A stretch of 64,000 bases of DNA from Acidobacteriota bacterium (GTDB lineage Bacteria > Acidobacteriota > Thermoanaerobaculia > UBA5066): NCBI GenBank assembly GCA_029781975.1, contig JAKOVQ010000005.1, positions 124,001-188,000 on the forward strand. The letters are read 5' to 3'. Made by a program: the position numbers and the translations under genes. The notes under the pieces were generated by a model, which saw only the letters and a program-made list of their open reading frames with translations, ran no database searches and was not told where the DNA came from. Below, piece by piece: positions 19,171-44,672 of this stretch; within the stretch, counting starts at the first letter, position 1; every line of letters begins with the position of its first letter.

Positions 19171-20517
19171 ATGCCGACTGTCACCCAGCACATCGACCCG
19201 AAGGACGTCCTGCGATCGCTCGGGCACCACATGCTCGTCGACGGCTACCACGTGGTGATGGACCTCGCCCGCTCGAAGGGCAGCTTCGTCCGCGACGCCC
19301 TCCACGACGTCGACGTGCTCGACTTCTTCTCCCATTTCGCCACCTGCCCCATCGGCTACAACCACCCGAAGCTCCAGGACCCGGACTTCCTCGACGAGCT
19401 CCACCGCGCGGCGATCACCAAGCCCGCGAACAGCGACATCTACACCGAGGAGATGGCCCGCTTCGTCGCGACGTTCGCCCGGATCGCCGTCCCCGCATCC
19501 CACGCCCGCCACCTCTTCTTCGTCGAGGGGGGCGCCCTCGCCAACGAGAACCAGCTCAAGGCCGCCTTCGACTGGAAGGTCCGCCGCAACTTCCGGAAGG
19601 GCTACCGCCGGGAGGTGGGCCACCAGGTCATCCACTTCGAGCAGGCCTTCCACGGCCGCTCCGGATACACGCTGTCGCTGACGAACACGGCCGACCCGCG
19701 GAAGACGATGTACTTCCCCAGGTTCCCCTGGCCGCGCATCGTCAACCCCAAGCTCTCGTTCCCCGTCACGGACGAGGTGCTGGCCCGCGTGAAGGCCGCC
19801 GAGGAGCTCGCCGTCGCGCAGATCAAGCAGGCCCTCGCCGACAACAGGGACGACGTGGCGGCCCTCATCATCGAGCCGATCCAGGGCGAGGGGGGAGACA
19901 ACCACTTCCGCCCCGAGTTCTTCCAGACGCTCCGCCACCTCTGCGACGAGAACGAGATGCTCTTCCTCTGCGACGAGGTGCAGACGGGGGTCGGCCTCAC
20001 CGGACGGATGTGGGGCTTCGAGACCCTCGGCTTCGTCCCGGACATGTTCTCTTTCGGGAAGAAGATGCAGGTCTGCGGCTTCGCGTCGAACGACAGGGTC
20101 CTCGAGGAGCCCGACAACGTCTTCGTCGTCTCGTCCCGGATCAACTCGACGTGGGGCGGCGCCCTCGTCGACATGGTGCGCGCGCGGAAGTACCTCGAGA
20201 TCGTCGAGGAGGAGAACCTCGTGGAGAACGCCCGCGTCGTGGGAGAGTTCCTCCTCGGGAAGCTCCACGAGCTCGCGGCCGAGTTCCCGGGGCGCGTGAC
20301 GAACGTCCGCGGCCGGGGCCTCTTCATCGCGTTCGACCTCGCGGACCACGCCACGCGCAACAAGGTCCTCTCCTGCTGGCTCCAGAAGCACAACGTCATG
20401 GGCCTCGCCTCCGGCGAGAGGGCCATCCGCCTCCGGCCTCCGCTGACCCTCTCCAGGGACGAGGCGCTCCTCGGCGTCCAGCGGCTGCGGGCCGCCCTCG
20501 CCGAGGTCGTCGGCTGA
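19171..20517 (+). CDS. lat: L-lysine 6-transaminase
   Basis: A 448-residue class III PLP aminotransferase. The whole-length pattern matches lysine epsilon-aminotransferase: the N-terminal HHMLVDGYHVVMDLARSKG, the EGGALANENQLKAAFDWKVR segment, the PLP Asp in LFLCDEVQTGVGLTG, and the Schiff-base Lys in FSFGKKMQVCG. It transfers the epsilon-amino group of lysine to 2-oxoglutarate, giving alpha-aminoadipate semialdehyde (cyclised to piperideine-6-carboxylate). This serves lysine catabolism or specialised metabolism. No semialdehyde dehydrogenase or Lrp regulator is adjacent. A GGAGG ribosome site precedes the ATG. Confidence 0.93.
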   Translation: MPTVTQHIDPKDVLRSLGHHMLVDGYHVVMDLARSKGSFVRDALHDVDVLDFFSHFATCPIGYNHPKLQDPDFLDELHRAAITKPANSDIYTEEMARFVATFARIAVPASHARHLFFVEGGALANENQLKAAFDWKVRRNFRKGYRREVGHQVIHFEQAFHGRSGYTLSLTNTADPRKTMYFPRFPWPRIVNPKLSFPVTDEVLARVKAAEELAVAQIKQALADNRDDVAALIIEPIQGEGGDNHFRPEFFQTLRHLCDENEMLFLCDEVQTGVGLTGRMWGFETLGFVPDMFSFGKKMQVCGFASNDRVLEEPDNVFVVSSRINSTWGGALVDMVRARKYLEIVEEENLVENARVVGEFLLGKLHELAAEFPGRVTNVRGRGLFIAFDLADHATRNKVLSCWLQKHNVMGLASGERAIRLRPPLTLSRDEALLGVQRLRAALAEVVG

Positions 20518-20518
20518 G

Positions 20519-21322
20519 GTGCCCGGCGGCGAGGAGCCGCCGCCCGGCTCCCCCTCGCGGCTCCGGGCGCCGCGAAGGCCGGGGGGAGGGGCCCCGCCCC
20601 GCACGGGGCTCCTCGTCGCCCTCGGCGCGGGCGCCCTCCTCGCCGCTCTCACCCTCGTCTGGGTCCCGCTTCCGAGGATCGTCCTGCTGCGGTTCCGGGA
20701 CCCGTCCTCGACGGCCTTCATCGACGCGCGGAGGGCGCGCCTTTCGCGGGAGGGAAAGGACGACCGGATCGACCGGAGGCCCGTTCCCCTCGAGAGGGTC
20801 TCCCCGAACCTCGTCCGCGCCGTGATCGCCGCCGAGGACGCGCGGTTCTTCGACCACCACGGGATCGACTGGGAGGCGATCCGCTGGGCGCGCCAGCGGA
20901 ACCGCCGCTACCCGCGCCGTCCGCCCCTGGGCGCATCGACCATCACGCAGCAGCTCGCGAAGAACCTCTACCTCTCGCCCGAGAGGAGCCTCGCGAGGAA
21001 GGTGCGGGAGGCCGCCATCGCCCTCGCCCTCGAGGCGTTCCTCCCCAAGCGGCGGATCCTCGAGCTCTACCTCTCGTCGATCGAGTGGGGCGACCGCGTC
21101 TACGGGTGCGAGGCCGCGGCGCGACGGACGTTCGGCGTCCCGGCCGCCGCGCTCTCGCGCTCCCAGGCCGCGTGGCTCGCGGCGATGATCCCGGGCCCGC
21201 GGCTCTACCTCGCGCACCCCGGCCGCCTCGCTCGCCGCGCGGCGCGGATCGAGCGGCGCATGGCGGCCAGCGTCCCCGCGGCCGGCCTCCTCGACGCCGC
21301 CGACGACGACGCGCCGCGCTAA
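20519..21322 (+). CDS. mtgA: Monofunctional peptidoglycan glycosyltransferase
   Basis: A 267-residue GT51 transglycosylase that polymerises lipid II without a transpeptidase domain. One N-terminal membrane span (about 40-60) anchors it facing the periplasm. The catalytic Glu is in VIAAEDARFFDHHGIDW, and GASTITQQLAKNLYLSPERS, ILELYLSSIEWG and AWLAAMIPGP are the standard motifs. The GTG start lies one base after the lat stop, following GAGG within the lat end. The first 40 residues are basic and Pro-rich and might be partly untranslated if a later start is used. Confidence 0.92.
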   Translation: MPGGEEPPPGSPSRLRAPRRPGGGAPPRTGLLVALGAGALLAALTLVWVPLPRIVLLRFRDPSSTAFIDARRARLSREGKDDRIDRRPVPLERVSPNLVRAVIAAEDARFFDHHGIDWEAIRWARQRNRRYPRRPPLGASTITQQLAKNLYLSPERSLARKVREAAIALALEAFLPKRRILELYLSSIEWGDRVYGCEAAARRTFGVPAAALSRSQAAWLAAMIPGPRLYLAHPGRLARRAARIERRMAASVPAAGLLDAADDDAPR

Positions 21323-21334
21323 ACTGGCGCGACC

Positions 21335-22198
21335 ATGCGACAGCATCGTTCCGTCCCCCACCGCCGGGCGCGAGCCCTCGCCGGGGCGCTCGCGGCGGCC
21401 CTCGCCGGGGCGCTCGCCCTGGCCGCCTGCAAGGCCAAGCCCGCCGAGGTCCGCGTCACCCCGAAGAAGGTGACCCTGTACGGGCTCGGGAGGACGAGCT
21501 CCCTCGCCTGGGAGGTCGTCGACGCGAAGGGGAACCCGGTCGAAGGGGCGTCCGTCTCGTGGCAGTCGTCGAATCCCAAGGTGGCCACGATCGAGGCCGG
21601 CGTCCTGACCTCGGTCGCTGCCGGAAAGGCGACCGTGACGGCGAGCCTCGCGGGAAGCCCGCTGACCGGGACGGCCGTCGTCGACGTCGTGGACATCGCC
21701 TCCGTCTCGGTCTTCCCCGTCCGGACCACCCTGGCGGGGCCGGCGGGGACCTCGTTCCACTTCGAGCTGAGCCAGAAGGACAGCGCGGGCAAGCCGCTCG
21801 ACCTTCCGGTCGCCTGGGCCTCGTCGAGCCCGAAGGTCGCGACCGTCGACGCGAACGGGACCGTGACCTCCGTCGCGGAGGGGCGGACGACGGTGACCGC
21901 GACGGTCGGCGACGTCTCGGCCTCGGCGGACGTCCGCGTGATCTTCCAGGAGATCGCCTCCCTCGACGTGGCGCCCACGACGCTCCTCCTCAGGCCGGGA
22001 GACCGCGGCACGCTCGTCGTGACGGCGCGGGACTCCGCCGGGAACGCGATCCCCGAGGTCGCCGCCACCTGGAGCAGCAGCAACCCGGTGGTGGCGACGT
22101 GCTCGGGCGGCGTCGTCCTGGCGCACGCTCCCGGCACCGCCTCCATCCGGGTCGTCTGCGGCACGAAGTCCGTCGAGGTCACGGTGATCGTCACTTGA
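21335..22198 (+). CDS. Lipoprotein with bacterial Ig-like (Big_2) repeats
   Basis: A 287-residue envelope lipoprotein. The signal peptide ends in a lipobox-like LAAC with Cys at about residue 32. Three Big_2-type beta-sandwich repeats of about 80-85 residues follow, each containing the characteristic W-x-S-S-N/S-P-x-V-A-T core (WQSSNPKVATIEAGVLTSVA, WASSSPKVATVDANGTVTSV, WSSSNPVVATCSGGVVL). Such domains usually act in adhesion or as structural modules of surface proteins. A TAAACT hexamer ends 9 nt before the ATG. Its stop overlaps a TTG start for the next gene. Confidence 0.88.
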   Translation: MRQHRSVPHRRARALAGALAAALAGALALAACKAKPAEVRVTPKKVTLYGLGRTSSLAWEVVDAKGNPVEGASVSWQSSNPKVATIEAGVLTSVAAGKATVTASLAGSPLTGTAVVDVVDIASVSVFPVRTTLAGPAGTSFHFELSQKDSAGKPLDLPVAWASSSPKVATVDANGTVTSVAEGRTTVTATVGDVSASADVRVIFQEIASLDVAPTTLLLRPGDRGTLVVTARDSAGNAIPEVAATWSSSNPVVATCSGGVVLAHAPGTASIRVVCGTKSVEVTVIVT

Positions 22199-23067
22199 TC
22201 GAGGGCGTCCGGCCCCCCGCGGTCTCGGGCGTCTTCTACGAGGGAGACGCCCGGTCCCTCCGGGGCGACGTGGACGCGTACCTCGCAGGGGCGGGCACCC
22301 CGCGCCTCCCGGCGGAGTCGTGGCGCGCGCTCCTCCTCCCGCACGCGGGTCACGTCTACTCCGGTCGGATCGCCGGCCACGGCGTCGGCGCCGTGGAGTG
22401 GCCCGGCCTCGCCCTCCTCCTCGGTCCGAACCACCACGGCGAAGGGGCCTCCGTCGCCCTCTCCCCGGAGGCCGCGTGGCGGACCCCGCTCGGGGACGTC
22501 GGCGTCTCGTCGGAGCTCGCCGAGGCGCTCCTGAGCGCGTGCCCCGACCTCCGCCCCGACCCACGGGCGCATCGCAGGGAGCACGCGCTCGAGGTCCTCG
22601 TCCCCTTCCTCCAGGTGGCCCGGCCCGGGATCGAGATCGCCTGCGTCTCCCTCGGCGAGCCGGACTTCGCCCTGTGCGCCTCCGTCGGCGCTGGTCTGGC
22701 CCGCGTGGTCCGCGCCTTCGAGGAGCGCGGCCGGAGGGTCGCGCTCGTGGTCTCCTCCGACCTCAACCACTACCTCCCGCGCCCGAGGAACCGGGAGCGG
22801 GACCTCCGGGCGGTCGACGCCCTGCTCCAGGGAGACCCTCGCGAGCTCTTCGAGCGCGTCCTGGTCCGCGAGCGGATCTCCATGTGCGGCGTCCTCCCCG
22901 CCACAGCCCTCCTCGAGGCGCTCAAGCACCTCCCGCCCACCCGCGCGCGGCTCCTCGCGCAGGGCGACTCGGGCGACGCCTTCGGGGAGACGAGCCGCGT
23001 CGTGGGCTACGCCGCCGTCCTCTGGGAGACGCTCCCGGAGACGCCCGGCACCGGGAGGACCCGATGA
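22195..23067 (+). CDS. Memo-like protein (AmmeMemoRadiSam system protein B)
   Basis: A 290-residue Memo/MEMO1 family protein, a relative of ring-cleaving dioxygenases of unsettled function. Family signatures are present: AVSGVFYEGDARSL at the N-terminus, LLPHAGHVYSGRIAG, LLLGPNHHGEG and VVSSDLNHYLP, which contribute the conserved metal-site histidines. The start is inferred as TTG at 22195, giving a TTGA overlap with the lipoprotein stop, in line with the coupled junctions around it. The usual partners (AMMECR1 protein and radical SAM protein) are not in the window. Its stop overlaps the glgA start. Confidence 0.85.
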   Translation: MIEGVRPPAVSGVFYEGDARSLRGDVDAYLAGAGTPRLPAESWRALLLPHAGHVYSGRIAGHGVGAVEWPGLALLLGPNHHGEGASVALSPEAAWRTPLGDVGVSSELAEALLSACPDLRPDPRAHRREHALEVLVPFLQVARPGIEIACVSLGEPDFALCASVGAGLARVVRAFEERGRRVALVVSSDLNHYLPRPRNRERDLRAVDALLQGDPRELFERVLVRERISMCGVLPATALLEALKHLPPTRARLLAQGDSGDAFGETSRVVGYAAVLWETLPETPGTGRTR

Positions 23068-24542
23068 GGATCTCGCACCTGTCGTCGGAAGTCTCCCCGT
23101 TCGCCAAGACGGGGGGCCTGGGCGACGTCGCCGCCGCGCTCCCGAAGGCCCTGGCGGCCTCGGGGCACGAGGTCGACGTCTGGATGCCCTTCCACCTCGA
23201 CGCCGCCCGCTGGTTCCGCAAGCGGGCCGCCTGGCCCGACACGCTCCTCTCGCCCTTCCGCGTCTCGATCCTCGGCGCCGAGCACGAGGTCGGGCTGCTC
23301 CGGGCGACGCTGCCGGGCACGACGGTCGCGGTCACCTTCGTGGCGCACGACCCGCTCTTCCACCGGCCGACGATCTACTCGCCCAACGAGCGGGGACAGG
23401 ACGACGACCTGTGGCGCTTCTGCCTCTTCGTGAGGGCCGCGGTCGAGGCGATGAAGCGGCTCGGACGGAGGCCCCAGATCCTCCACACGCACGACTGGCA
23501 CCCGGCCCTCGCCCCGATGCTCGGCGCCTGGAGCAGCTACCGCGACCCGTGGTTCGACGACGTCGCGTCGGTGCTGACGATCCACAACGTCGGCTACCAG
23601 GGGGTCTACGGCCTCGACCAGTTCGGCGTCCTGGGCCTCCCTCCCGAGACGCTCACCGGCGGGGTCGTCGAGCACGCGGGCGCGCTGAACATGCTGAAGG
23701 GCGCCCTCGTCGCCGCCGACATGATCACGACGGTGTCGCCCACGTACGCCTGGGAGATCACGACGCCCGAGGGGGGCGCGGGCCTCGACGGCGTGCTGAG
23801 GATGCGGGCCGGCCGGCTCACCGGGATCCTCAACGGGATCGACACGCACGAGTGGGACCCGACCCACGACCGCTACCTCCCCGCCCACTACTCGCGCGAG
23901 AACCTCCGCGGGAAGAGGGAGTGCCGCGCCGAGCTCTGCCGCGTCGCCGGCTTCGAGCCGGGCGACCCCTCGATGATCGTCGGGGCGGTGGGGCGGCTCG
24001 TCCCCCAGAAGGGGTTCGACGTCCTCTTCGAGGCGGCCCCCGAGCTGATCCGCCGGGGCGTCCGCATCGTCGTCCTCGGGAGCGGCGAGCCCGCGCTGGA
24101 GGGGAGCATGCGCCTCCTCGAGGCCCACGCTCCCCGGGGCTTCCGCGCGTTCCTCGGCTACGACGACCGGCTCTCGCACCTCATCCAGGCCGGGGCCGAC
24201 GCGTTCGTGATGCCGTCGCGCTACGAGCCGTGCGGCCTGACGCAGATGTACGCGATGCGCTACGGGACCGTGCCGGTCGTGAGGAAGACGGGCGGGCTGT
24301 CGGACTCCGTCATCGGCTTCACCGGCCAGAACGCCGAGTGGGCCACGGGCTTCCACTTCGAGGACCCGTCGCCGCACGCGCTGGCGGCCGAGCTCCTGAG
24401 GGCGCAGAACGTCTTCTTCCACCGCGACCTCTGGCACCGGCTCGTCGCCAACGGGATGCGCGCCGACTTCTCGTGGGGACGGTCGGCGGCGGCGTACGAG
24501 CTGGTCTACCGGAGGGCCCGGGAGGTCCGCGGGCTGCCGTGA
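23064..24542 (+). CDS. glgA: Glycogen (starch) synthase
   Basis: A 492-residue GT5 glycosyltransferase extending alpha-1,4-glucan chains from ADP-glucose. The N-terminal KTGGLGDVAAALPKAL holds the nucleotide-sugar-binding Lys and Gly-Gly. The middle part has HTHDWHPALAP and LTIHNVGYQG, and the C-terminal half has AVGRLVPQKGFDVL and EPCGLTQMYAMRYGTVPVVR with the catalytic Glu region. It starts with ATG overlapping the Memo-like stop (ATGA). Its TGA is the first element of a 79-bp tandem repeat. No other glycogen gene is nearby. Confidence 0.95.
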   Translation: MRISHLSSEVSPFAKTGGLGDVAAALPKALAASGHEVDVWMPFHLDAARWFRKRAAWPDTLLSPFRVSILGAEHEVGLLRATLPGTTVAVTFVAHDPLFHRPTIYSPNERGQDDDLWRFCLFVRAAVEAMKRLGRRPQILHTHDWHPALAPMLGAWSSYRDPWFDDVASVLTIHNVGYQGVYGLDQFGVLGLPPETLTGGVVEHAGALNMLKGALVAADMITTVSPTYAWEITTPEGGAGLDGVLRMRAGRLTGILNGIDTHEWDPTHDRYLPAHYSRENLRGKRECRAELCRVAGFEPGDPSMIVGAVGRLVPQKGFDVLFEAAPELIRRGVRIVVLGSGEPALEGSMRLLEAHAPRGFRAFLGYDDRLSHLIQAGADAFVMPSRYEPCGLTQMYAMRYGTVPVVRKTGGLSDSVIGFTGQNAEWATGFHFEDPSPHALAAELLRAQNVFFHRDLWHRLVANGMRADFSWGRSAAAYELVYRRAREVRGLP

Positions 24543-24739
24543 ATCAGGGGGAACCGCGGCCCTGCGGGCCTGCCGCCGGTTCCCCCCGAACCCCCCTCCG
24601 CGCGAGCGGGCCGAGGAGTGAATCAGGGGGATCCGCGGCCCTGCGGGCCTGCCGCAGGTTCCCCCCGAACCCCCCTCCGCGCGAGCGGGCCGAGGAGTGA
24701 ATCAGGGGGATCCGCGGCCCTGCGGGCCTGCCGCCGGCC
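24540..24739. repeat. 79-bp tandem repeat, 2.5 copies, hairpin-forming
   Basis: Copies begin at 24540, 24619 and 24698 (period 79 bp); the third is cut after about 42 bp. Each starts TGAATCAGGGGGA. Copy 1 folds into a long hairpin, with GGGGGAACC pairing to GGTTCCCCC around a GC-rich core. Copy 2 has the change to GGGGGATCC, which weakens the stem, and copy 3 lacks the right arm. The TGA of copy 1 is the glgA stop codon, and copy 3 runs to the 3' end of the convergent phosphatase gene. It probably acts as a bidirectional terminator or is a REP-like element. Confidence 0.85.
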
Positions 24740-24743
24740 GGCT

Positions 24744-25559
24744 TCAGCGCGCCGCTTCCCCGGCCCCGGCGCGCGAGGCCAGCTCGACCAGCGCGCCGTG
24801 GACGCCGGGCACGCCCGCCAGGACGTTCCCGCTCGTCCTCCAGAGCCCCCCGCCCGCGAAGTCGGTCACGACGCCCCCCGCCTCCTCCACCAGGAGGGCG
24901 CCGGCAGCCGTGTCCCACGGCGCGAGACCCAGCTCGAAGAAGCCGTCGAAGACGCCGCCGGCGACGTAGGCGAGGTCGAGCGCGGCGCTCCCGGCGCGGC
25001 GCAGCGACCGGACGGAGAGGAAGACCTCGCGGAAGAGGCGCAGGTACGGGTCGATGGCTCCGGCCTGCCGGAACGGGAAGCCGGTCGCGAGCGAGGCCCC
25101 GTCGAGGCCCGGCCGGGCCGCGACCCGGAGCCTTCGCCCGTTCCGGAACGCGCCGCCCCCGGCTTCCCCCGCGAAGAGGTCTCCCTTGAGCGGGTCCCAC
25201 ACGACGCCGACCGTGAGCTTCCCGAGAGGACCCTGCTCGGTCCGCGCCACCGAGACGGACCAGTGCGGGAAGCCGCGCACGAAGTTGGCCGTCCCGTCGA
25301 GGGGGTCGACGACCCAGCACGGGGCGTCGGCGGAGGGACCGGAGAGCCCCGCTTCCTCTCCCAGGAAGACGTCCCCGGGGAAGGCGCCCAGGAGGATGCG
25401 CCGGCAGACGTCCTCGCTCTCGCGGTCCGCCCTGGAGACGACGTCGTTCTTCGCCTTCTCCTCGACGTCCTCCGGGGCGAGCCGGCCGGACCAGCCGAGG
25501 AGGACCTCGCCGGCGGCGCGGGCGGCCTCGAGGGCGACGTCGAGAGGGGAGCGGCTCAC
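24744..25559 (-). CDS. suhB: Inositol monophosphatase family protein
   Basis: A 271-residue Mg-dependent phosphatase of the IMPase/SuhB/CysQ superfamily. The metal-binding motifs are present: LGEEAG (Glu), WVVDPLDGTANFVRGFP (Asp-x-Leu-Asp-Gly-Thr) and LAPWDTAAGALLVEEAGG near the C-terminus. It could act on inositol phosphate, another sugar phosphate or 3'-phosphoadenosine nucleotides; the sequence does not decide. The GTG start (25557-25559) gives the usual length. It is the last gene of the minus-strand pyrR-pyrB-pyrC-receiver run, 47 bp after the receiver gene. Confidence 0.88.
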   Translation of the reverse strand: MSRSPLDVALEAARAAGEVLLGWSGRLAPEDVEEKAKNDVVSRADRESEDVCRRILLGAFPGDVFLGEEAGLSGPSADAPCWVVDPLDGTANFVRGFPHWSVSVARTEQGPLGKLTVGVVWDPLKGDLFAGEAGGGAFRNGRRLRVAARPGLDGASLATGFPFRQAGAIDPYLRLFREVFLSVRSLRRAGSAALDLAYVAGGVFDGFFELGLAPWDTAAGALLVEEAGGVVTDFAGGGLWRTSGNVLAGVPGVHGALVELASRAGAGEAAR

Positions 25560-25606
25560 GGGACGGCAGGATATCCGACGCCCCGGTCCCGGGGAGAGGA
25601 CGCCGC

Positions 25607-26044
25607 TCAGTGCCTCGTGACGAGGCTGTCGAGGATCATCAGGAAGGCGCTCTGCTGCTGCGCCTCGCTCTTGTTGATGACGGCCAGGCAGTCGCCCGGC
25701 GCGAAGAGGCGGTGGAGCTCGTCCGCGTCGTGGCCCGATACGATCACGATCCGCTTCCTCGGGACGCCCCTCTCCTGGGCGATCTTGGCGACCTTGCGGC
25801 CGTCGAGGACCGGCATCTCGAGGTCGACGAGGAGGAGGTCGACGTCCGGTCCGAGGGCGCGGAGCGCCGCCACGGGGTCCTGGTAGGCCTCGAAGCGGAC
25901 CCGATCGCCGTAGCGGCAGGCGAAGATCGCGCGCCACGACTCGGCGTAGAGGGGCGAGTCGTCGACCAGGACGACGCGCTTGGGGGAGGGGGGCTCCGCG
26001 GCGGGGGGGGGCGGCGGGTCCGTCACGGGAAGCGGGACGTTCAC
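25607..26044 (-). CDS. Stand-alone response-regulator receiver protein
   Basis: A 145-residue CheY-like protein without an output domain. After a Pro-rich N-terminus of about 20 residues it shows the acidic pair in VVLVDDSPLYAESW, the phosphoacceptor Asp in LLLVDLEMPVLDG, a Ser in IVIVSGHDADEL at the usual Thr/Ser position and the conserved Lys in AVINKSEAQ. All key residues of a working receiver are therefore present. It lies 9 bp after pyrC on the same strand. No kinase gene is adjacent; the nearest in the window is about 30 kb away. The partner is unknown. Confidence 0.85.
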   Translation of the reverse strand: MNVPLPVTDPPPPPAAEPPSPKRVVLVDDSPLYAESWRAIFACRYGDRVRFEAYQDPVAALRALGPDVDLLLVDLEMPVLDGRKVAKIAQERGVPRKRIVIVSGHDADELHRLFAPGDCLAVINKSEAQQQSAFLMILDSLVTRH

Positions 26045-26053
26045 CGGCGGCGC

Positions 26054-27373
26054 TCAGGCGGACGCCGGGGTCACGACCCCGGGGCCGCCCGCCGCGTAGA
26101 CCTCCCGCCCTCGGACGAAGGTCCGCTCGACGCGCCCCCGGAGGGTCCGGTCCGCCCAGGGAGAGTTCCGCGACCGCGAGCGGAACGACGAGAACGTCGT
26201 CCACCGGTCCGTGGAGAAGAGGACGACGTCCCCGGCCGCTCCCTCGGCCAGGGTCCCGTACGGGAGGCCGAAGAGCCGGGCGGGGGCCGTGGAGAGGACC
26301 TCCACGAGGCGCGTCAGGGGGAGGAGGCGCGTGGCGACGAACGAATCGACCAGGACGGCGAGGGCGGTCTCGAGGCCCGTCACGCCGAACGGCGCGGCGG
26401 CGAACTCCATCGCCTTCTCGTCGTCGTGGTGCGGGGCGTGGTCGGTGGCGACGCAGTCGATCGTGCCGTCCGCGAGCGCCTCGACGAGGGCGGCCCGGTC
26501 CGCTTCGTCCCGCAGCGGCGGGTTCATCTTGAACCGGGTGTCGTAAGCCGAGCGGGCGACGTCCTCGTCCGTCAGGGTCAGGTGGTGGGGCGTCACCTCG
26601 CAGGAGACCCGGACGCCCTCGGCCCGCGCCCGCCGCACGGCCGCGAGGGAGCCCCGCGTCGAGACGTGGGCCACGTGGAGGCGGGCGCCGGTCAGGGCGG
26701 CCAGCTCGACGTCGCGCGCCACCATCGACGACTCCGCCACGGCGGGCCAGCCCGGCAGCCCGAGCCGCGTCGACGCCCAGCCCTCGTTCATCACCCCGCC
26801 GGCGACGAGGCTCGGGTCCTCCTCGTGGACGACGACGGGGAGGTCGAACATCGAGGCGTACTCGAGCGCGCGCCGCATCAGGAGGCCGCTGGCGATCGGG
26901 CGGCCGTCGTCCGAGACGGCGACGATCCCCTCGGCCTTCATCAGGCCGATCTCGGCGAGCTCCTTCCCCTCGAGCCCCTTCGAGACGGCGCCGATCGGGA
27001 AGACCCGCACGAGGGCGGTCTCGCGGATCCGCCGGACGACGAAGGAGGCGGTGGCCGCGTCGTCCACCACCGGGCTCGTGTTCGCCATGGAGCAGACGGT
27101 CGTGAAGCCCCCGGCCGCGGCCGCCGCGGTCCCGGTGGCGATCGTCTCCTTGTACTCGTACCCCGGCTCGCGCAGGTGGACGTGGAGGTCGACGAAGCCG
27201 GGCGCCACGACGAGCCCCTCGGCGTCGACGACCGTCGCCCCCTTGGGCGCCGCGATCCTCTCGTCGACGCGGGCGACCACGCCGTCCCGGAGGAGGACGT
27301 CGAGCCCCTGGTCGAGCCCCCGCGACGGGTCGACGACCCGGCCGCCGGTGATCAGGACGGGAGCGTCATTCAT
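26054..27373 (-). CDS. pyrC: Dihydroorotase
   Basis: A 439-residue class I dihydroorotase, the third step of de novo pyrimidine synthesis (carbamoyl aspartate to dihydroorotate). The metal site begins with [12 protein letters not shown]. Other motifs are [31 protein letters not shown] and the catalytic Asp in [17 protein letters not shown] at 27371-27373 is preferred to an adjacent GTG, and it overlaps the pyrB end by 8 bp. It sits between pyrB and a receiver gene. Direct pyrB-pyrC linkage suggests coordinated production, as in species where the two proteins form a complex. Confidence 0.95.
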
Positions 27374-28331
27374 CACCGCTGGCTCCGATCAGGAGGTAGA
27401 GCACCGCCATCCGGACCGCGACGCCGGCCTCGACCTGGTCGAGGATCACGGAATCGGGGCCGTCGGCGACCGAGGAGTCGATCTCGACGCCGCGGTTCAT
27501 GGGGCCGGGGTGCATCACGATGGCGTCCTTCTTGGCCAGGCGGCGCCGCTCGGGCGTCAGTCCGAAGAGCTCGAAGTACTCGCGGTCGTTCGGGAAGCCG
27601 AGGCCCCCCCCGCGCTCCTTCTGCACCCGCAGCATCATCACCACGTCCGCCCCGTCGACGGCGTCCTCGATCCTGGTGACGACGCGCGCGCCGGTCCGTT
27701 CCACCGCCACCGGCAGGAGCGTCCGCGGGCCGGCGAGCGTGACCTCGGCGCCGACCTTCGTCAGGAGCTCGACGTTCGAGCGGGCGACGCGGCTGTGGAG
27801 GACGTCGCCGCAGATGGCGACCCGCAGCCCCTCGAGCCGCCCCTTGGCGCGCCTCATGGTGAACGCGTCGAGGAGCGCCTGGGTCGGGTGCGCGTGCGTC
27901 CCGTCCCCCGCGTTCACCACCGCGCACGGGAGGTTCCGCGCGAGGAAGTGCGGCGCGCCGGAGGCCTGGTGCCGGATGACGATGGCGTCGGGCTTCATCG
28001 CCATCAGGTTCCTCGCCGTGTCGAGGAGGGTCTCGCCCTTCGAGACGGAGGAGCCGGCGGCCGAGAACGAGATGGAGTCGGCCGACAGCCGCCGCTCGGC
28101 GATCTCGAAGGAGAAGCGGGTCCGGGTCGACGCCTCGAAGAAGAGGTTCGCGACCAGCTTGCCCCGGAGGGTCGGCACCTTCTTGATCGTCCGCTGGTTG
28201 ATCTCGCGCATCGACTCCGCCGTGTCGAGGACCAGCTGGATCTCGGGCCGGGTCAGCGATCCGATGTCGACGAGGTCCTTCTTCGCGAAGGAGGCGAGGG
28301 GCTCGGACGGGGCGTCGGGTCTTCGGGTCAC
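27366..28331 (-). CDS. pyrB: Aspartate carbamoyltransferase catalytic subunit
   Basis: A 321-residue ATCase catalytic chain that condenses carbamoyl phosphate and aspartate. Carbamoyl-phosphate contacts are in [15 protein letters not shown] and [16 protein letters not shown]. The aspartate-binding end carries [10 protein letters not shown] and [14 protein letters not shown]. There is no pyrI regulatory subunit gene. It follows pyrR by 15 bp and overlaps pyrC, so pyrR-pyrB-pyrC form one transcription unit. Confidence 0.95.
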
Positions 28332-28346
28332 CGGGGAGGACGCTCC

Positions 28347-29075
28347 CTAGCTCCGGCGTTTCGGCCCGGATCGCGGGGCCTTCCGCCGGGGCGCCCCGGC
28401 GGCGGCCTTGCGGCGGGGAGCCGGGCTCGCCTCGGGGCCCGCCGCGCGCCGCGCGGGGGCGCCCTTCCGGGGTCCGTCGCCCTTCGGCGCCGCCTTCCGC
28501 TTGCGGACGGGACGGGCGGCCTCGCGGTCCAGCAGCCAGACGTCGTCGTGGCCGTCGGTCTCGCGGAAGGTGACCGAGACGATCTCGGTCGCGGAGGTGG
28601 AGACCCTCTTCCCGACGAACTGGGCCTCGATCGGCAGCTCGCGGCGGCCCCGGTCGACGAGGACGGCGAGGAGGATCCGGCGCGGCCGCCCGAAGTCGAG
28701 GATGGCGTCGATGGCGGCGCGGACCGTCCGGCCCGTGAAGAGGACGTCGTCGCAGAGGACGATCGTCTTGGCCTCGACGGGGAACGAGATCTCCGTCCGC
28801 TTCAGGACCGGCGACGAGGCCACCGTGGAGAGGTCGTCCCGGTAGAGCGTGATGTCGAGGAGGCCGACGGGGGGGCGGGTCCCGTCCGCGCGCTCCACCT
28901 CGAGGGCGAGGCGCTGCGCGAGGGGGACGCCGCGGGTCCGGATGCCGACCAGGGCGAAGGTCTCGGCGCCGCCGACCGTCTCGACGAGCTCGCGGGCCAT
29001 CCGGGCGAAGATCCGCTGCATGCCGGTGGCGTCGATCAGCCGGACCTTCTTGTAGGTGCCTGCAGCTTCTCCCAT
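28347..29075 (-). CDS. pyrR: PyrR-like bifunctional regulator/uracil phosphoribosyltransferase with basic tail
   Basis: A 242-residue PyrR-type phosphoribosyltransferase. The PRPP-binding motif is intact in TIVLCDDVLFTGRTVRAAID, and other family blocks are VGIRTRGVPLAQRL and ITLYRDDL. Normal PyrR is about 180 residues. Here about 60 more residues follow, made almost only of Ala, Pro, Lys, Arg and Gly, and resembling the basic tails of nucleic-acid-binding proteins. The ATG is about 16 nt after a TAGTGT -10-like element. The 75-bp gap to queA leaves no room for a classical PyrR attenuator leader. It heads the pyr operon. Confidence 0.9.
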   Translation of the reverse strand: MGEAAGTYKKVRLIDATGMQRIFARMARELVETVGGAETFALVGIRTRGVPLAQRLALEVERADGTRPPVGLLDITLYRDDLSTVASSPVLKRTEISFPVEAKTIVLCDDVLFTGRTVRAAIDAILDFGRPRRILLAVLVDRGRRELPIEAQFVGKRVSTSATEIVSVTFRETDGHDDVWLLDREAARPVRKRKAAPKGDGPRKGAPARRAAGPEASPAPRRKAAAGAPRRKAPRSGPKRRS

Positions 29076-29150
29076 CTCGGACCGGGCGGGAACACTACAC
29101 GCGGGGGGCGGCGGCGTCAACGCGCGCCCCGAGGCGCCACAATCGGGGCG

Positions 29151-30185
29151 ATGGACGTCTCCGACTTCGAGTTCGACCTCCCCCCCGACGCGATCGCGCA
29201 GCGCCCCGCCCCGCGCGGCACCTCGCGGCTGATGACGCTCGACCGCCGGACGGGCGCCGTGGGCCACCGCCGGGTCGCCGACCTCCCGGACCTCCTCCGC
29301 GACGGGGACGTCGTGGTCGTGAACGACACCCGGGTCATCCCCGCGCGCCTCTTCGGCACCGACGCGGCGGGGCGCCGCACCGAGCTCCTCCTCGTGGAGC
29401 GGGCGCCTCACGACGAGAGCTGGTGGTGCCTCGCCCGCCCCGGCCGCCGCGCGAAGCCGGGGCGCTCGTTCGACGTGGGAGCCGGCGTCGTCGCGACGGT
29501 GCGCGAGACCGACGGCCACGGCCGCTACCTGGTGACGTTCTCCGGCGTCCCCCTGGCCGAGGCCCTCCCGCGGATCGGCTCCACCCCCCTCCCGCCGTAC
29601 ATCCACCGCCCCGACGGCATCGCCGACGCCCGCGACGCGGTCGACTACCAGACGGTCTACGCGCGCGAGCCCGGGGCGGTCGCCGCGCCGACGGCCGGGC
29701 TCCACTTCACCCCCGAGCTCCTCGACGCCGTGAAGGGCCGGGGAGCGGCCCTCGCCCGCCTGACCCTCCACGTCGGGATCGGGACGTTCAAGCCGGTGAA
29801 GGTCGACCGCGTGGAGGACCACCGGATGGAGCCGGAGCGGGGGGAGATCCCCGAGGAGACGGCCCGGCTCGTCAACGCGGCCCGGGACGAGGGACGGCGC
29901 GTCGTGGCCGTCGGGACGACCTCCGTCAGGACGCTCGAGGCCTCCGCGCGCTCGAACGGCGGCCGCGTCGCCCCCGGCCCCGTCGAGACCGCGCTCTTCC
30001 TCTACCCGGGCGCCGAGTTCCTCGCCGTCGACGCCCTCCTGACGAACTTCCACCTCCCGAGGTCGACGCTCCTGATGCTCGTCTCGGCCTTCGCCGGGCG
30101 CGAGCGCGTCCTCGCGGCGTACCGCGAGGCGGTCGCGGAGGGCTACCGGTTCTTCTCCTTCGGGGACGCGATGCTCGTCGCCTGA
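29151..30185 (+). CDS. queA: tRNA preQ1(34) S-adenosylmethionine ribosyltransferase-isomerase
   Basis: A 344-residue QueA that transfers and isomerises the ribosyl part of SAM to preQ1-tRNA, giving epoxyqueuosine. Recognisable blocks are FDLPPDAIAQRPAPRGTSRL at the N-terminus, VVVNDTRVIPARLFG, GSTPLPPYIHR, DYQTVYAREPGAVAAPTAGL, LTLHVGIGTFKPVK and TNFHLPRSTLLMLVSAFAG. The ATG is 7 nt after CACAAT (29138-29143), with no ribosome site. It is divergent from pyrR and convergent with htrA across a strong hairpin. No tgt gene is in the window. Confidence 0.95.
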   Translation: MDVSDFEFDLPPDAIAQRPAPRGTSRLMTLDRRTGAVGHRRVADLPDLLRDGDVVVVNDTRVIPARLFGTDAAGRRTELLLVERAPHDESWWCLARPGRRAKPGRSFDVGAGVVATVRETDGHGRYLVTFSGVPLAEALPRIGSTPLPPYIHRPDGIADARDAVDYQTVYAREPGAVAAPTAGLHFTPELLDAVKGRGAALARLTLHVGIGTFKPVKVDRVEDHRMEPERGEIPEETARLVNAARDEGRRVVAVGTTSVRTLEASARSNGGRVAPGPVETALFLYPGAEFLAVDALLTNFHLPRSTLLMLVSAFAGRERVLAAYREAVAEGYRFFSFGDAMLVA

Positions 30186-30223
30186 GGCGGCGGGGCGAGC
30201 GGCCCGCCTCGCCGCGACGGGCG

Positions 30224-30275
30224 GGAGCCCCGGAAAGGGAGACGCCCCGCTCGCGCGGGGCGTTCCCGGGGCTCC
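30224..30275. terminator. Long bidirectional hairpin between queA and htrA
   Basis: GGAGCCCCGG (30224-30233) pairs with CCGGGGCTCC (30266-30275), and nested inside is ACGCCCCGC with GCGGGGCGT around a TCGC loop. The hairpin lies between the two convergent stop codons (30185 and 30292) and can end both transcripts. No T tract is present. Confidence 0.65.
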
Positions 30276-30291
30276 GTGCGGCCGGGGGCCG

Positions 30292-31815
30292 CTACTCGGT
30301 CAGCTCGACCGCCGCGATGAAGTTCGTCGGCCGCGGGATGGAGCGGAGGACGTAGAACCTCACGAACTTCCCCTTGGCCTTCTTCATCTCGGCCTGGAAC
30401 GCCTCCACGGAGGCGACCGCCTTGCCGTTGACCTCCTGGATGACGTCGCCTTCCGACAGGCCCGCGTCGGCCGCGGCCGACACCGGCTTGACGTGGGTGA
30501 GGACGACGCCCTGGGCGTCGGCGGCGATCCGGTACGCGCGCCGGCTGGCGGACGTGAGGTTGTCGATGGAGATGCCGATCTTCTCGCGCGACTCCTGGCT
30601 CTCGTCCTCGGCGGCGGGGGCCTCCCCCTCCTCCTGCCTCTCCTCGAGGGTGGCGACGGTGGTCTTCTCCTTCCCGTCGCGGATCAGGGTGATCGCCACC
30701 TTGGTCCCCGGCGTCTTCCCGGAGACGTAGTCGATCAGGTCGCGGTTCGTCACCACCTTCACGTCGTCGACGCGCGTGATCACGTCGCCGTGGCGGATGC
30801 CCGCCTTGTCGCCCGGCATCCCCTTCTCGACCGACTGCACGAGGGCCCCTTCCGGCTTCGGGAGCTCGAACGCCTCCTGGATCTTCCGGTCGACCGAGGT
30901 GATCTGGATCCCCAGGAAGCCGCGGACGACCTTCCCCTTCTTCAGCTGCGGGAGCAGGCTCTTGGCGACGTTGATCGGGACGGCGAAGCCGATGTTCTGG
31001 GCGAACCGCGAGATCGCCGTGTTGATGCCGATCACCTCGCCGTGGACGTTGACGAGCGGCCCCCCGGAGTTGCCGAAGTTGATCGCCGCGTCGGTCTGGA
31101 TGAGGTTCTCGAACGAGCGCGTCGCGCTCGACAGGCCGGGCGCGCGGCCCTTGCCCGAGACGACGCCGACCGTGACGGTCTTCTCGAACTGGAGCGGGTC
31201 GCCGACGGCCATCACCCACTCGCCCACCCTCAGGCGGCTCGAGTCGCCGAGCGTCAGGGTGGGGAACGGCTTCTTGCCGTCGATCTTCAGGAGCGCCAGG
31301 TCCGTCGCCGGGTCGCGCCCGACCACCCGGGCCTTGTACTCGTCGACCTCGCCGACGGTCACGTCGACCCGCTCCGCCCCCTCGATGACGTGGTTGTTCG
31401 TCAGGATGAAGCCGTCGGGCTCGATCAGGAACCCGGTGCCGCCCGAGAGCTCCTTCTGGTCCTCGTCGTCGCCCTGCCCCTTGCGGTCGGGGCCGAAGAA
31501 CTGGTCGAAGGGGCTCTGCCCTCCCCAGTTGTGGAAGGGGGCGGGGCGCTTGTCGGCCTTGATGATCTCGGTCGACCGGATCGAGACCACGGCCGGGACG
31601 ACGCGCTCGGCGATGTCGGCGAACGACGGCAGCCCTTCCGGCGCCGTCGCCCGGACCGCCGGGGCCGGGCTGCTCGCCGCGTCGGCCGACGAGGACGCCA
31701 TCCGGTCCGCCGAGGCGTGGCGGGTGAAGTCGAGGCTCCCGGCCAGGATCATCCCGAAGACGACCGCGGCGGCGACGAGAGCCGTGAGGGAGAGGACCTT
31801 CGTTTTCGTCTGCAT
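30292..31815 (-). CDS. degP: Do/DegP (HtrA) family serine endoprotease
   Basis: A 507-residue periplasmic trypsin-like protease and chaperone for misfolded envelope proteins. It has an N-terminal membrane anchor or signal (VLSLTALVAAAVVFGMILAG) and an acidic linker. The catalytic triad is in ILTNNHVIEG (His), DPATDLALLKI (Asp) and NFGNSGGPLV (Ser), with two PDZ domains (about 265-360 and 405-500). The upstream in-frame ATGs are rejected because AAGGA sits just before the ATG at 31813-31815. TATGAT ends 10 nt upstream. The TonB-like gene on the same strand is 111 bp upstream. Confidence 0.94.
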   Translation of the reverse strand: MQTKTKVLSLTALVAAAVVFGMILAGSLDFTRHASADRMASSSADAASSPAPAVRATAPEGLPSFADIAERVVPAVVSIRSTEIIKADKRPAPFHNWGGQSPFDQFFGPDRKGQGDDEDQKELSGGTGFLIEPDGFILTNNHVIEGAERVDVTVGEVDEYKARVVGRDPATDLALLKIDGKKPFPTLTLGDSSRLRVGEWVMAVGDPLQFEKTVTVGVVSGKGRAPGLSSATRSFENLIQTDAAINFGNSGGPLVNVHGEVIGINTAISRFAQNIGFAVPINVAKSLLPQLKKGKVVRGFLGIQITSVDRKIQEAFELPKPEGALVQSVEKGMPGDKAGIRHGDVITRVDDVKVVTNRDLIDYVSGKTPGTKVAITLIRDGKEKTTVATLEERQEEGEAPAAEDESQESREKIGISIDNLTSASRRAYRIAADAQGVVLTHVKPVSAAADAGLSEGDVIQEVNGKAVASVEAFQAEMKKAKGKFVRFYVLRSIPRPTNFIAAVELTE

Positions 31816-31926
31816 CGCGTCCTTCATCATAGCGGCGCCGGCCCGTGCAACGGTCGTGCCCGCCATCGTCTCCTTACGGAAGGGTCCCTCCGGGGTTTCG
31901 GACCGCCCCGCGGCTTTCTCCCCGGC

Positions 31927-33135
31927 CTATCTCCCGGACCCGCCCGGCGCCGTCCGGTCGAGGTCCTCCGGGCGGATGTTGTAGAGGAACGTCACCGTCA
32001 CCCCCTCGCGGTCGTGGCCCAGGTCCGCCGGGAGCGGCCGGAAGGGGCTCGCGTTCCGGATCGCCTGCATCGCGGCGTTGTCGTAGGGAGGGATCCCGGA
32101 GGAGACGAGGAGCGTCACCCCCTCCACGTGCCCGTCCTTCATGATGTAGAAGCGGATGCGGCACCACCCCTTGATGCCGTAGTACGCCAGCTTCGGGACG
32201 TCCCAGTTCTGCTTGATCTTCCGGATCATCGCGGCCGCGTACGAGCCCCAGTCGTAGCCGGCGGTGTCGAAGGTGAGCGGCCCCGAGTCGACGAATCCGC
32301 CGTCGCGCTCGAAGCCGGCGCCCCCCTCACCCCCGGCCGCCTCGGCCCGGGCGGCCTGGGCGACCTGCGCCGCCGTCAGCCCCTGGAGGATGCTGGGCGA
32401 GAGCCCCTTGAGCCCCTTGAGGGCTTCCCCCGGCCCGGCCTGCTCCGGCTTCTTCTTCGCCGCCGATCCGCCGTCTCCGGCCGGCTCCTGCGCGGCGGCC
32501 TGCGCCACGGCCGGAGGGGCCTTGGCCGTCTCGGCCCCCTTCTTTCCCTCCTCGAGGTCCTGGATTCCGGACTTGGCGACGGACCGTGGCTGGACCGCCT
32601 TCGGGAGCTTCGGGTCTCCCCCGTGCGCCTGGCGGTCCAGGTCCGACGGGCGGGGCCTCGGCCCCGGGGCGGGGGCCCTGGGACCGGGCGACGGGAAGAG
32701 GTCCACGGGGATCGGCGGCTCGGGAGGGGGCACGGTCATCAGCTTGACGATCCCGAGCGGGTCGGGGAGCTGGTCGGGAGGGACCTCCGGAAGCTTCTTC
32801 GGCGGGGGCGCGAGGATCACGGCGAGCGCGATGAGGAGGTGGAGGATGACGGACAGGGCCACCGCGCGCTCGCGGTCGATCCCCCAGAGCGGACGATCCT
32901 CGGCGACGTCGTCCTTCGGCGGAGGAGCTGCACCCACGATCCGGTCCAGGTGGACCTCCACCTCGACCGGTTCCGGCCGGGCGAAGGGGTCGTGCTCGCG
33001 CTGAAGGCCGCCCGGAGGCGGCCACGGGGCGGGAACGGCGTCGTCGTCCCGCGAGGGGTCGAGACCGAGAAGAGAGTCGTCGAGAATGCGCTCCTCGCAA
33101 GGGGACGCCAGGATCGTCCCTCGAGCGGCTCGCAT
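31927..33135 (-). CDS. TonB-like energy transducer
   Basis: A 402-residue protein with an acidic N-terminal cytoplasmic part (about 90 residues), one membrane span (AVALSVILHLLIALAVILAP), and a long Pro/Ala/Lys-rich periplasmic region. It ends with a TonB C-terminal domain (about 300-390, WGSYAAAMIRKIKQNWDVP, IRFYIMKDGHVEGV, AAMQAIRNASPFRPLP). This architecture couples inner-membrane energy to outer-membrane receptors, or serves as a TonB/TolA-like linker. No exbB, exbD or tolQR is adjacent. The N-terminal cytoplasmic extension is longer than in enteric TonB. Its ATG lies inside a 7-bp inverted repeat. Confidence 0.85.
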   Translation of the reverse strand: MRAARGTILASPCEERILDDSLLGLDPSRDDDAVPAPWPPPGGLQREHDPFARPEPVEVEVHLDRIVGAAPPPKDDVAEDRPLWGIDRERAVALSVILHLLIALAVILAPPPKKLPEVPPDQLPDPLGIVKLMTVPPPEPPIPVDLFPSPGPRAPAPGPRPRPSDLDRQAHGGDPKLPKAVQPRSVAKSGIQDLEEGKKGAETAKAPPAVAQAAAQEPAGDGGSAAKKKPEQAGPGEALKGLKGLSPSILQGLTAAQVAQAARAEAAGGEGGAGFERDGGFVDSGPLTFDTAGYDWGSYAAAMIRKIKQNWDVPKLAYYGIKGWCRIRFYIMKDGHVEGVTLLVSSGIPPYDNAAMQAIRNASPFRPLPADLGHDREGVTVTFLYNIRPEDLDRTAPGGSGR

Positions 33136-33148
33136 GGGAAACCCATGC
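33132..33148. promoter_or_regulatory. Inverted repeat over the tonB-like start codon
   Basis: GCATGGG (33132-33138) and CCCATGC (33142-33148) are a perfect 7-bp inverted repeat separated by AAA. One arm contains the ATG of the TonB-like gene. It may be an operator in the divergent tonB/rimP region or an RNA hairpin hiding the start codon. It could also be chance. Confidence 0.35.
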
Positions 33149-33209
33149 CAATCACCCGGGCGCCGGCGGCCGATGGATGATAGGGCAGCCCGCTCGGGCG
33201 CGGGTCTCC

Positions 33210-33239
33210 TTGAAGGGACGCGGGATCGTCTGATATAAG
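33210..33239 (+). promoter_or_regulatory. Promoter of the rimP-nusA-infB operon
   Basis: TTGAAG (33210-33215) is followed after 18 bp by TATAAG (33234-33239); GATATA two bases earlier is an alternative -10 at 16 bp. The stretch is unusually AT-rich for this genome. The predicted start near 33246 lies upstream of the leader hairpins and about 85 nt before rimP. Confidence 0.65.
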
Positions 33240-33245
33240 AAGAGC

Positions 33246-33297
33246 TGGGCTGACTTTCAAAGTCCTTGAGGGTGGGCTTCGAGCCCGCCTTTTTTTT
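33246..33297 (+). ncRNA. rimP operon leader with intrinsic terminator (attenuator)
   Basis: Downstream of the promoter, GACTTT-C-AAAGTC (33252-33264) forms one small perfect hairpin. GGTGGGCT-TCG-AGCCCGCC (33271-33289, one G-U pair) forms a second that is followed by eight T residues (33290-33297). It is the only textbook rho-independent terminator in the window. There is no plus-strand gene before it, so it must stop transcription before rimP unless antitermination occurs. Leader attenuators in front of rimP-nusA operons are known in other bacteria; what controls this one is unknown. Confidence 0.7.
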
Positions 33298-33329
33298 CGG
33301 TGGCCCCCGGGGAGGACCTCACGGAGAGC

Positions 33330-33854
33330 GTGACGAATCGCAGCACCCCGCTGAGCGAGGCGACGCAGGACGGCCTACGGGCGGCGCTCGGGTCGCTCGG
33401 GCTGGAGCTGTGCCACGTCGACTGGCGTCCCGGGGCTCGCCGCGGCGTCCTCACGCTCTTCATCGACCGCCCGGGCGGCGTCTCGCTCGAGGACTGCGAG
33501 GCGGCCAGCCGCGCCGCTTCGGACCTCCTCGAGGCGGCGGACCCCATACCGGGCGCCTGGGTCCTCGAGGTCTCCTCGCCGGGCCTCGACCGGCCGCTCT
33601 GGTCCCTCGACGACGCCCGGAGGTTCGTGGGCCGCAGGGTCCGCGTGACGACGACCGCTCCCGTCGACGGCGCCCGACACATGAAGGGACCGCTCGAGGG
33701 AGTCGACGGCGGCGCCCTGGTGGTCGTAGACGAGGACCGGCGGCATCGTTACACTGTGCAGTTCGGCGACGTCAAGGTCGTCCGCTTGATCCCGGAGTTC
33801 GAAGCCCCCCCGACCCCGTCGTCCCCAGCCCGAAGGGAGAGACCCGCGAGATGA
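33330..33854 (+). CDS. rimP: Ribosome maturation factor RimP
   Basis: A 174-residue factor for 30S subunit assembly. The N-terminal domain shows LGLELCHVDWRPGARRGVLTLFIDRPGGVSLEDCEAASR (two alternating strands and the ED-C-E-x-x-S-R segment), then VLEVSSPGLDRPL, the family hallmark. The C-terminal SH3-like domain follows. GTG at 33330 with GGAGA just upstream is chosen. An earlier GTG at 33300 abuts the terminator T run and has no ribosome site. The stop overlaps nusA (ATGA). Its place at the head of the nusA-infB operon is conserved widely. Confidence 0.92.
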   Translation: MTNRSTPLSEATQDGLRAALGSLGLELCHVDWRPGARRGVLTLFIDRPGGVSLEDCEAASRAASDLLEAADPIPGAWVLEVSSPGLDRPLWSLDDARRFVGRRVRVTTTAPVDGARHMKGPLEGVDGGALVVVDEDRRHRYTVQFGDVKVVRLIPEFEAPPTPSSPARRERPAR

Positions 33855-35644: not shown

Positions 35645-35652
35645 AGACGACC

Positions 35653-38600: not shown

Positions 38601-39069
38601 CGCGCAGGCTTCCGAGGCGATCGTCATCGGCTTCAACGTCCGTCCGGAGAAGAAGGCCGAGGAGCTCGCCGAGAAGGAAGGGGTCGACATCCGCCTCTAC
38701 TCGGTCATCTACACGGTGACCGACGAGATCAAGAAGGCGATGATGGGCCTCCTCGACACGGTCAAGAAGGAGATCGGCCGGGGGAAGGCCGAGGTCCGGA
38801 ACACGTTCCGGATCCCGAAGATCGGTGTCGTCGCCGGCTGCATGGTCGTCGAGGGGGTCGTGCCGAGGAACGCCTCGGCCCGCCTCGTCCGCGACGGCCG
38901 CGTGATCTTCGAAGGGAAGATCGGGTCGCTCCGCCGCTTCAAGGAGGACACCTCCGAGGTCAAGAGCGGCTTCGAGTGCGGCATCGGGATCGCGGGCTAC
39001 CAGGACATCAAGGTCGGCGACGTCATCGAGGCGTTCGTCACCGAGGAGGTGGCTCCCTCGCTGACCTGA
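35653..39069 (+). CDS. infB: Translation initiation factor IF-2
   Basis: A 1138-residue GTPase that brings fMet-tRNA to the 30S subunit. It begins with the IF2_N fold ([20 protein letters not shown]). About 470 residues of Ala/Pro/Glu- and then Pro/Gly/Arg-rich linker follow. A second IF2_N motif precedes the G domain ([26 protein letters not shown]) and domains II-IV to the end. The linker is long even for GC-rich species. ATG at 35653 is used; a GTG at 35641 overlapping the nusA stop is in frame and would add four residues. Confidence 0.95.

Positions 39070-42374: not shown

Positions 42375-44672
<2,298 letters not shown>

Follow-up and report, generated by a model that had tools for sequence, protein, structure and literature searches.

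A dispersed REP-like hairpin repeat at stop codons in one family of Acidobacteriota

A tandem array between glgA and a phosphatase gene

The window, by which we refer to the whole analysed stretch of 64,000 nt, is part of contig C14 of a genome (G000, here termed the source genome) that comprises 5.37 Mb in 54 contigs. The closest named relatives of its glgA are found in metagenome genomes labelled as Acidobacteria or Acidobacteriota, Thermoanaerobaculia and Holophagales. Between glgA and a convergent gene of the inositol monophosphatase family, whose stop codon is located at positions 24744–24746 of the reverse strand, lies a gap of 201 nt that is covered, except for a few bases, by a tandem array with the following organization:

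23064..24542, + strand: glgA, glycogen/starch synthase, the upstream gene (Pfam PF08323, PF00534)
24539..24617, + strand: repeat unit 1, 79 nt, consisting of a core of about 62 nt and a 17-nt locus-specific spacer
24540..24542, + strand: TGA stop codon of glgA, inside the 5' end of unit 1 (GTGAATC)
24547..24555, + strand: left arm GGGGGAACC of unit 1
24578..24586, + strand: right arm GGTTCCCCC of unit 1
24590..24600, + strand: C-rich tail ACCCCCCTCCG, which recurs across loci and genomes
24601..24617, + strand: spacer CGCGAGCGGGCCGAGGA, the same in units 1 and 2 and not seen at other arrays of the source genome
24618..24696, + strand: repeat unit 2, 97% identical to unit 1, with one arm mismatch
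24697..~24737, + strand: repeat unit 3, truncated, ending before the right arm
24744..25607, − strand: inositol monophosphatase family gene, the convergent neighbour (Pfam PF00459; start approximate)

Tandem Repeats Finder recognizes the array with a period of 79, 2.5 copies and 98% matches, and its score of 378 is the highest among the 32 rows obtained for the window. Positions 44528–44648 contain another good tandem array, with a period of 51, 2.4 copies and a score of 200. An initial annotation of this DNA had described two full copies and one truncated copy of a 79-bp repeat, extending from the glgA TGA to the 3' end of the phosphatase gene, which is in agreement with our coordinates. It had also attributed a long stem to the first copy and decayed arms to the other two, as is borne out by folding predictions. 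As RNA, unit 1 forms a long hairpin with a predicted energy of –32.6 kcal/mol (z –2.5, with 4 of 200 shuffled sequences folding as well), whereas the fold of unit 2, with its mismatched arm (GGATCC), is weaker and not a simple hairpin (z –1.7, 10 of 200 shuffles as good) and unit 3, where the right arm is missing, folds worse than its shuffles. In a search of window positions 20000–30000 against Rfam 15 at E ≤ 1, the array had no match and a single chance match was found elsewhere.

Distribution, architecture and placement of the element

A search of the source genome with the 200-nt array returned eight further matches, one of which (L009) is a chance match and another a second stretch of an array at L002. 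A covariance model built from 15 units identified 16 matches at E ≤ 2.3e-6 and one at 0.015, and thus 17 units at nine places, while weaker matches, which include opposite-strand echoes of the palindrome, were left out. The additional genomic copies that the initial annotation had proposed to look for are therefore present. A second model detected the element in six of seven genera and in 12 of the 14 genomes that represent the family of the source genome, all of them draft and mostly fragmented assemblies. The number of matches amounts to at least 16 in the source genome and, in the other positive genomes, to at least 2 (in each of four), 3, 4, 6, 10, 15, 30 and 46, with no match to the second model among the candidates scored in G003 and G010 (up to 150 per genome). 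After removal of six opposite-strand echoes from 159 model matches, 153 copies remained, of which 123 are the first of their array. The model matches include L013, which lies on a named contig that shares its length and glgA position with a contig of G001. In a class-wide search of 148 genomes at E ≤ 1e-4 with stricter filters, 11 genomes matched, all belonging to this family, with none among the 134 genomes outside of it. An earlier search of 60 genomes with a looser threshold (E ≤ 0.01) had returned one borderline outsider (G051, E 0.0059). Finally, a stem pattern devoid of 5' motif and tail occurs at 123 places, which are spread over 12 of the 14 genomes and include a single place in G003, and its backwards control at none.

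The copies share a core of about 60 nt, which contains a 5' motif such as GAAGTG, a stem resembling GGGGGAACC...GGTTCCCCC and a C-rich tail ACCCCCTCCG. The 5' motif ends in GTG, and in 90 anchored copies the tetranucleotide preceding the TG is GAAG in 20, GTAG in 13, GACG in 11 and a different one in 46. The interior of the hairpin differs between genomes and loci, ranging from a bare loop to a version with three hairpins (L291). Compound copies with a longer apical part, extra hairpins and a preserved outer stem are found at L291:1631–1732, which was folded, and at L280, L300, L204, L216, L220 and L222, which were read by eye. A related hairpin, GGGGGTTTCTCGATCCCCCC, with a similar tail CCCCCCACCGAG at L115:1501–1546 (contig C24 of the source genome) matches weakly (E 0.08) and is perhaps a diverged sister family.

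The stem was characterized in the 132 of 153 copies whose arms are recognizable and distinct. In counts that do not rely on the model, covariation is seen for the two base pairs outside the G-run, with Watson-Crick pairs in 95 and 78 of the 132 copies compared to 37 and 48 in shuffles, whereas the third to fifth pairs show none (32, 18 and 61 compared to 29, 33 and 65). The two outermost stem pairs are thus kept by compensating changes. In the model alignment, which had been fitted to the covariance model, 97.8% of cells pair and double-change cells number 14 (3.5 in shuffles), with no excess in the pairs that carry double changes (2 compared to 2.2) or in further pair types (8 compared to 8.2).

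Most arrays are short: 99 of the 123 contain a single unit by the model, 21 are double and three consist of three to five units. Neighbouring copies no more than 130 nt apart have the same orientation in 30 of 32 pairs and opposite orientation in two (L202, L204). Four arrays of the source genome (L001–L004) contain at least two spacers. In L001, L002 and L004, these are the same or nearly so within the array and unlike those of other loci, and L003 has two different ones, so that local duplication seems to account for most of these arrays, but not for all.

Flanking genes were assigned with a caller based on codon usage that was trained on 35 reading frames, after a crude GC3 caller, which found no sense gene for 72 of the 153 copies, had been dropped. 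An upstream gene is readable for 113 of the 123 array-first copies, of which 111 are located in sense orientation at its 3' side and two are opposed. In 102 of those in sense, the called stop ends between –19 and +12 nt from the first base of the element, and the remaining nine comprise seven with a stop 30–296 nt upstream, some of which may reflect frame errors, and two inside open genes. The distance to the stem was measured for the 98 of these 102 near-stop copies that have a GGGG stem start, and 90 of them (90 of all 111 sense copies) have a stem that begins no more than 15 nt from the stop. The stop is TGA in 66 and TAG in 29 of these 98, and both show a sharp phase, TGA preceding the stem by 8–9 nt in 31 of 66 and TAG by 6 nt in 17 of 29 cases. 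Since the covariance models contain the 5' motif, the position test was repeated with the stem pattern only. This test covered 107 distinct stem sites, rather than all 123 places, at loci that had partly been obtained via the models. With 27 sites that lack a one-sided tail set aside, 71 array-first sites could be oriented by their tail. Among the 63 of these with a readable upstream gene, 55 have a stop between –30 and +3, compared to 2 of 37 on the opposite side.

As background we used 392 element-free gene ends from the same loci. Here, NGTG follows TGA in 4 of 230 cases, and the GTG thus belongs to the element. The base preceding an in-phase TGA is C in 38 of 42 copies, compared to 61% of the 230 background TGA codons. 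TAG stops are preceded by G in 14 of 29 (81% in the background), a deficit that is at odds with a fixed GTAG, and by C in 9 of 29 (12% in the background). Both excesses of C are modest, and a CT that precedes the 5' motif in 47 of 90 copies had looked stronger before the gene-end background was counted. The element often seems to supply the stop codon of the upstream gene itself. Convergent downstream genes account for 59 and same-strand ones for 26 of 85 clear calls, with 28 of the 123 copies being unclear and 10 on stretches that are too short. The initial proposal that copies are spread through the genome at convergent gene ends consequently holds for their dispersal over nine places, whereas the convergent arrangement is common but not exclusive.

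Inheritance and gain at orthologous gene ends

In the window, GlgA ends with ...GLP and its stop is contained within the element. Elsewhere in the family, the end of GlgA could be resolved in 11 genomes and always continues for one more residue (W in ten, L in one) with no element match at this position; in another two genomes the end is truncated. The distance from glgA to the phosphatase gene is apparently only 9 nt in G004. As judged from these protein ends, the tryptophan codon and stop of the relatives are replaced at the glgA of the window by a TGA inside the element.

Within one genus (g5), we searched 16 element-bearing gene ends in four congeners. At 12 of the 16 sites, a match (E ≤ 0.01) is found in at least two congeners, and at 9 of the 15 sites for which an ortholog was found a match (E ≤ 0.1) is missing in at least one congener, although at two of these nine (L299 and L280) an altered copy is visible by eye. 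The cleanest junction is L230, where the stop of G004 is separated from a conserved flank by an insert of about 53–55 nt that G009 and G013 do not have. At a junction that we take to be atpG–atpD in G009, G011 and G004, the element is located at the stop in G009, lies about 18 nt beyond this position in G011 and is absent in G004. The gene end preceding what is presumably a pilT-like gene is filled in G004 and G009, where the stop is TGA, and empty in G011, where it is TAG. At the end of a gene that we assume to be of the LuxR family, G009 contains a possible remnant of the element, and the copy of the source genome shows a likeness of 0.85 to other copies of the same genome, compared to 0.42 to the orthologous copies in G004 and G011.

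Two copies are part of open reading frames. At L180:1501–1551 (contig C14 of G005), a copy lies in frame within a gene for an error-prone DNA polymerase, at the site of a variable loop; the best family for this gene is NF004225 with 388 bits for a 300-residue part (the cutoff for the whole protein being 939). Among ten other genomes with an ortholog, this loop is 22 residues shorter in G001, G002, G003, G008 and G012 and unrelated in sequence in G000, G004, G006, G009 and G011. A second in-frame copy is found at L137:1501–1551 (contig C404 of G012), where the open gene continues on both sides.

The nearest neighbour of an array-first copy belongs to the same genome in 81 of 123 cases (25 expected) and to the same genus in 101 (30 expected). 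Own-genome neighbours prevail in G005 (41 of 45), G006 (29 of 29) and the source genome (8 of 9), together accounting for 78 of 83 copies, and in genus g5 their number is only 2 of 27. In g5, the 12 of 16 shared sites and the small number of own-genome neighbours indicate that inheritance accounts for much of today's distribution. Conversely, the empty orthologous sites, the in-frame copy in the polymerase gene and the likeness within some genomes argue that the element spreads.

Relation to known repeats, mobilization and function

The described features place the element close to known REPs. In the account of PMC3733652, the GTAG-tagged REPs of E. coli and Stenotrophomonas are multi-copy short hairpins with an unpaired 5' tetranucleotide, which are located downstream of genes between convergent or co-directional open reading frames, where GTAG often provides a stop codon, and which also occur inside replication and repair genes. 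Our element is equally short, palindromic, extragenic and present in multiple copies, it resides downstream of genes, often seems to supply stop codons and has a copy in a polymerase gene. It differs in its tetranucleotide, where GAAG (20 of 90) and GACG (11) accompany GTAG (13), and since GTAG is in the minority, its stop is more often TGA (66 of 98) than TAG (29 of 98). Further differences concern the long C-rich tail, the lack of a cognate RAYT among the genes found and the arrangement of neighbours, which in 30 of 32 pairs show the same orientation instead of the alternation of BIMEs that is common, though not universal, in REPs. With at least 2 to at least 46 matches per positive genome, the element also remains below the more than 100 copies stated for REPs in PMC2817692. 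TnpA-REP (RAYT) is described in PMC8266576 to cut at a CT beside the REP, a property mirrored by the CT before the motif in 47 of 90 copies and by C-TGA at 38 of 42 in-phase sites (61% in the background). For REPs of E. coli located within 15 nt of stop codons, which account for 446 of 4072 predicted REPs in PMC12306157, ribosome stalling has been reported, as cited in the same source; 90 of our 111 sense copies have a stem at this distance and agree with them in position. The RPE palindromes of Rickettsia, which are found within proteins and carry a CGTC tag according to PMC3733652, resemble the in-frame copies at L180 and L137, but these constitute just 2 of 123 array-first copies. In the copies examined by eye, we find neither a terminal inverted repeat nor a constant target duplication. 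Of the initial designation as REP/MITE-like mobile or amplified element, the comparison to REPs is thus supported by the dispersal at gene 3' ends, whereas the comparison to MITEs is not. At the level of titles and abstracts, the literature searched contained no published description of the element. Its behaviour is known, since GTAG REPs were already reported in PMC3733652 to supply stops downstream of genes, while the family itself, with its TGA-type tag, direct arrays and missing RAYT, is a variant and not a plain GTAG REP.

The source genome contains a single Y1 transposase gene (Y1_Tnp, PF01797) at L096:4767–5776 (contig C37), whose RAYT-like product reaches 79.7 bits for NF047646 (REP-associated tyrosine transposase), just under the NCBI cutoff of 80. 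In contrast to TnpA-REP and its REPs, this gene is not flanked by the stop-codon element but by different, inverted GGATCACAGACCTGACCCC (GGATCACGGATCACAGACCTGACCCC) repeats. The GGATCACGGATCACAGACCTGACCCC repeat is also present at positions 3348 and 8057 of L096 and, next to the L002 array, at L002:1810 and L002:2121, as a second, separate repeat system. Y1_Tnp genes are found in 8 of the 14 family genomes and their number shows no correlation with that of the element across the 14, with ten genes and no element by the model in G003, two genes and at least 46 copies in G005, and at least 30 copies in G006, where no Y1 gene was found in an assembly that is 83% complete. None of 25 Y1_Tnp loci searched in these incomplete assemblies is directly flanked by the element, although one locus contains an element 1.35 kb away from its Y1 match (E 7.8e-4) and another shows a match at chance level at a distance of 275 nt (E 0.18). 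The search for a RAYT gene suggested by the initial annotation has thus not led to a cognate enzyme.

The same annotation had assumed a use as terminator, which for an intrinsic terminator is not supported. In none of the 121 copies with a recognizable right arm is the stem followed by TTT within 12 nt, with four or more T in 4 of 121, which makes this role unlikely. A strict scan for a hairpin followed by a T-run is passed by 1 of 123 copies, and a general terminator scan of window positions 20000–39000 identified 8 sites (3.7 by chance), none of them at the array. The counts also do not support an arrangement in which the element would as a rule be followed by a canonical terminator, as a separate T-run hairpin is present within 220 nt after just 7 of 118 arrays (0.1 expected from shuffles). 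Rho-dependent termination may take place at the C-rich tail. REPs have been linked to mRNA stability. The role that we tentatively favour for the hairpin, at somewhat less than even odds, is perhaps a protection of the mRNA 3' end, and an effect on translation termination comes next.

In the interpretation that we favour, with a probability of about 0.7, the repeat is a dispersed REP-like hairpin element positioned in sense orientation at stop codons, which would spread in the form of single-stranded hairpins by the action of a nuclease of the Y1/HUH type. Copies would mainly survive at the 3' ends of genes, where a sense insertion presumably costs little because the 5' motif tends to close the frame, with TAG contained in GTAG and TGA in CTGAAG or GTGA. 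Once transcribed, the stable hairpin, typically located 6–9 nt after the stop, would act in the mRNA, not as intrinsic terminator but most likely by shielding its 3' end from exonucleases and perhaps by slowing terminating ribosomes. A more far-reaching version, where a process independent of a RAYT homes to the stop and a mobile hairpin rewrites stop codons genome-wide and controls termination or the protection of mRNA ends, appears to us improbable. The favoured interpretation overlaps with a scenario in which the element is a classical REP of a lost or missed RAYT, whose spread has ended and which now, as a relic, just decays and duplicates in place. We regard this as a serious contender that falls somewhat short of an even chance, since REP-like anatomy, the GTAG in 13 of 90 copies, the Y1_Tnp genes in 8 of 14 family genomes and the low element counts in most genomes speak for it, whereas the likeness of copies within G005, G006 and G000 suggests more recent spread or homogenization and the one RAYT inspected in detail carries another repeat.

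The copies could also be ordinary, immobile transcription terminators, which descended vertically at their present sites and owe their likeness to selection or gene conversion, as might be concluded from their sense orientation at gene ends, including many convergent pairs, from the 12 of 16 sites in g5 that are common to at least two congeners and from a different perfect hairpin that occupies the same glgA–phosphatase junction in two relatives (L010 and L011). Such an origin is unlikely in light of the missing TTT (0 of 121) and the scarcity of T-run hairpins after the arrays (7 of 118), the in-frame copy inside the polymerase gene and the LuxR-family gene end, where the copy of G000 is closer to other copies of this genome (0.85) than to the orthologous ones (0.42). 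Finally, draft and fragmented genomes and the ease with which GC-rich palindromes can arise by chance would be compatible with an artefact of assembly or chance, consisting of a local tandem duplication in GC-rich DNA and unrelated look-alikes elsewhere, but this view is refuted by the controls and hardly credible, given 0 places for the backwards pattern compared to 123, the lack of matches in 134 other genomes of the class and the recurrence of the same sites in separate congeneric assemblies.

The element opens two questions about REPs to testing, namely whether their placement at stop codons is due to a preference during insertion or to selection, and whether a RAYT is needed for the spread of REP-like hairpins. 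It is also a warning that in these genomes a repeat can determine where a gene ends and which C-terminus its protein has. Other repeats were also observed. The hairpin found at L010 after position 3080, GGGGAGGCTCGTGACGAGCCTCCCC, has a close variant at L011 after position 5476 and possibly represents another dispersed family. At L298 and L235, a long inverted repeat, CCAGGCGTGAAATCGTGTATTG...CAATACACGATTTCACGCCTGG, is located 3' of the element between gene ends of G011 and G009.
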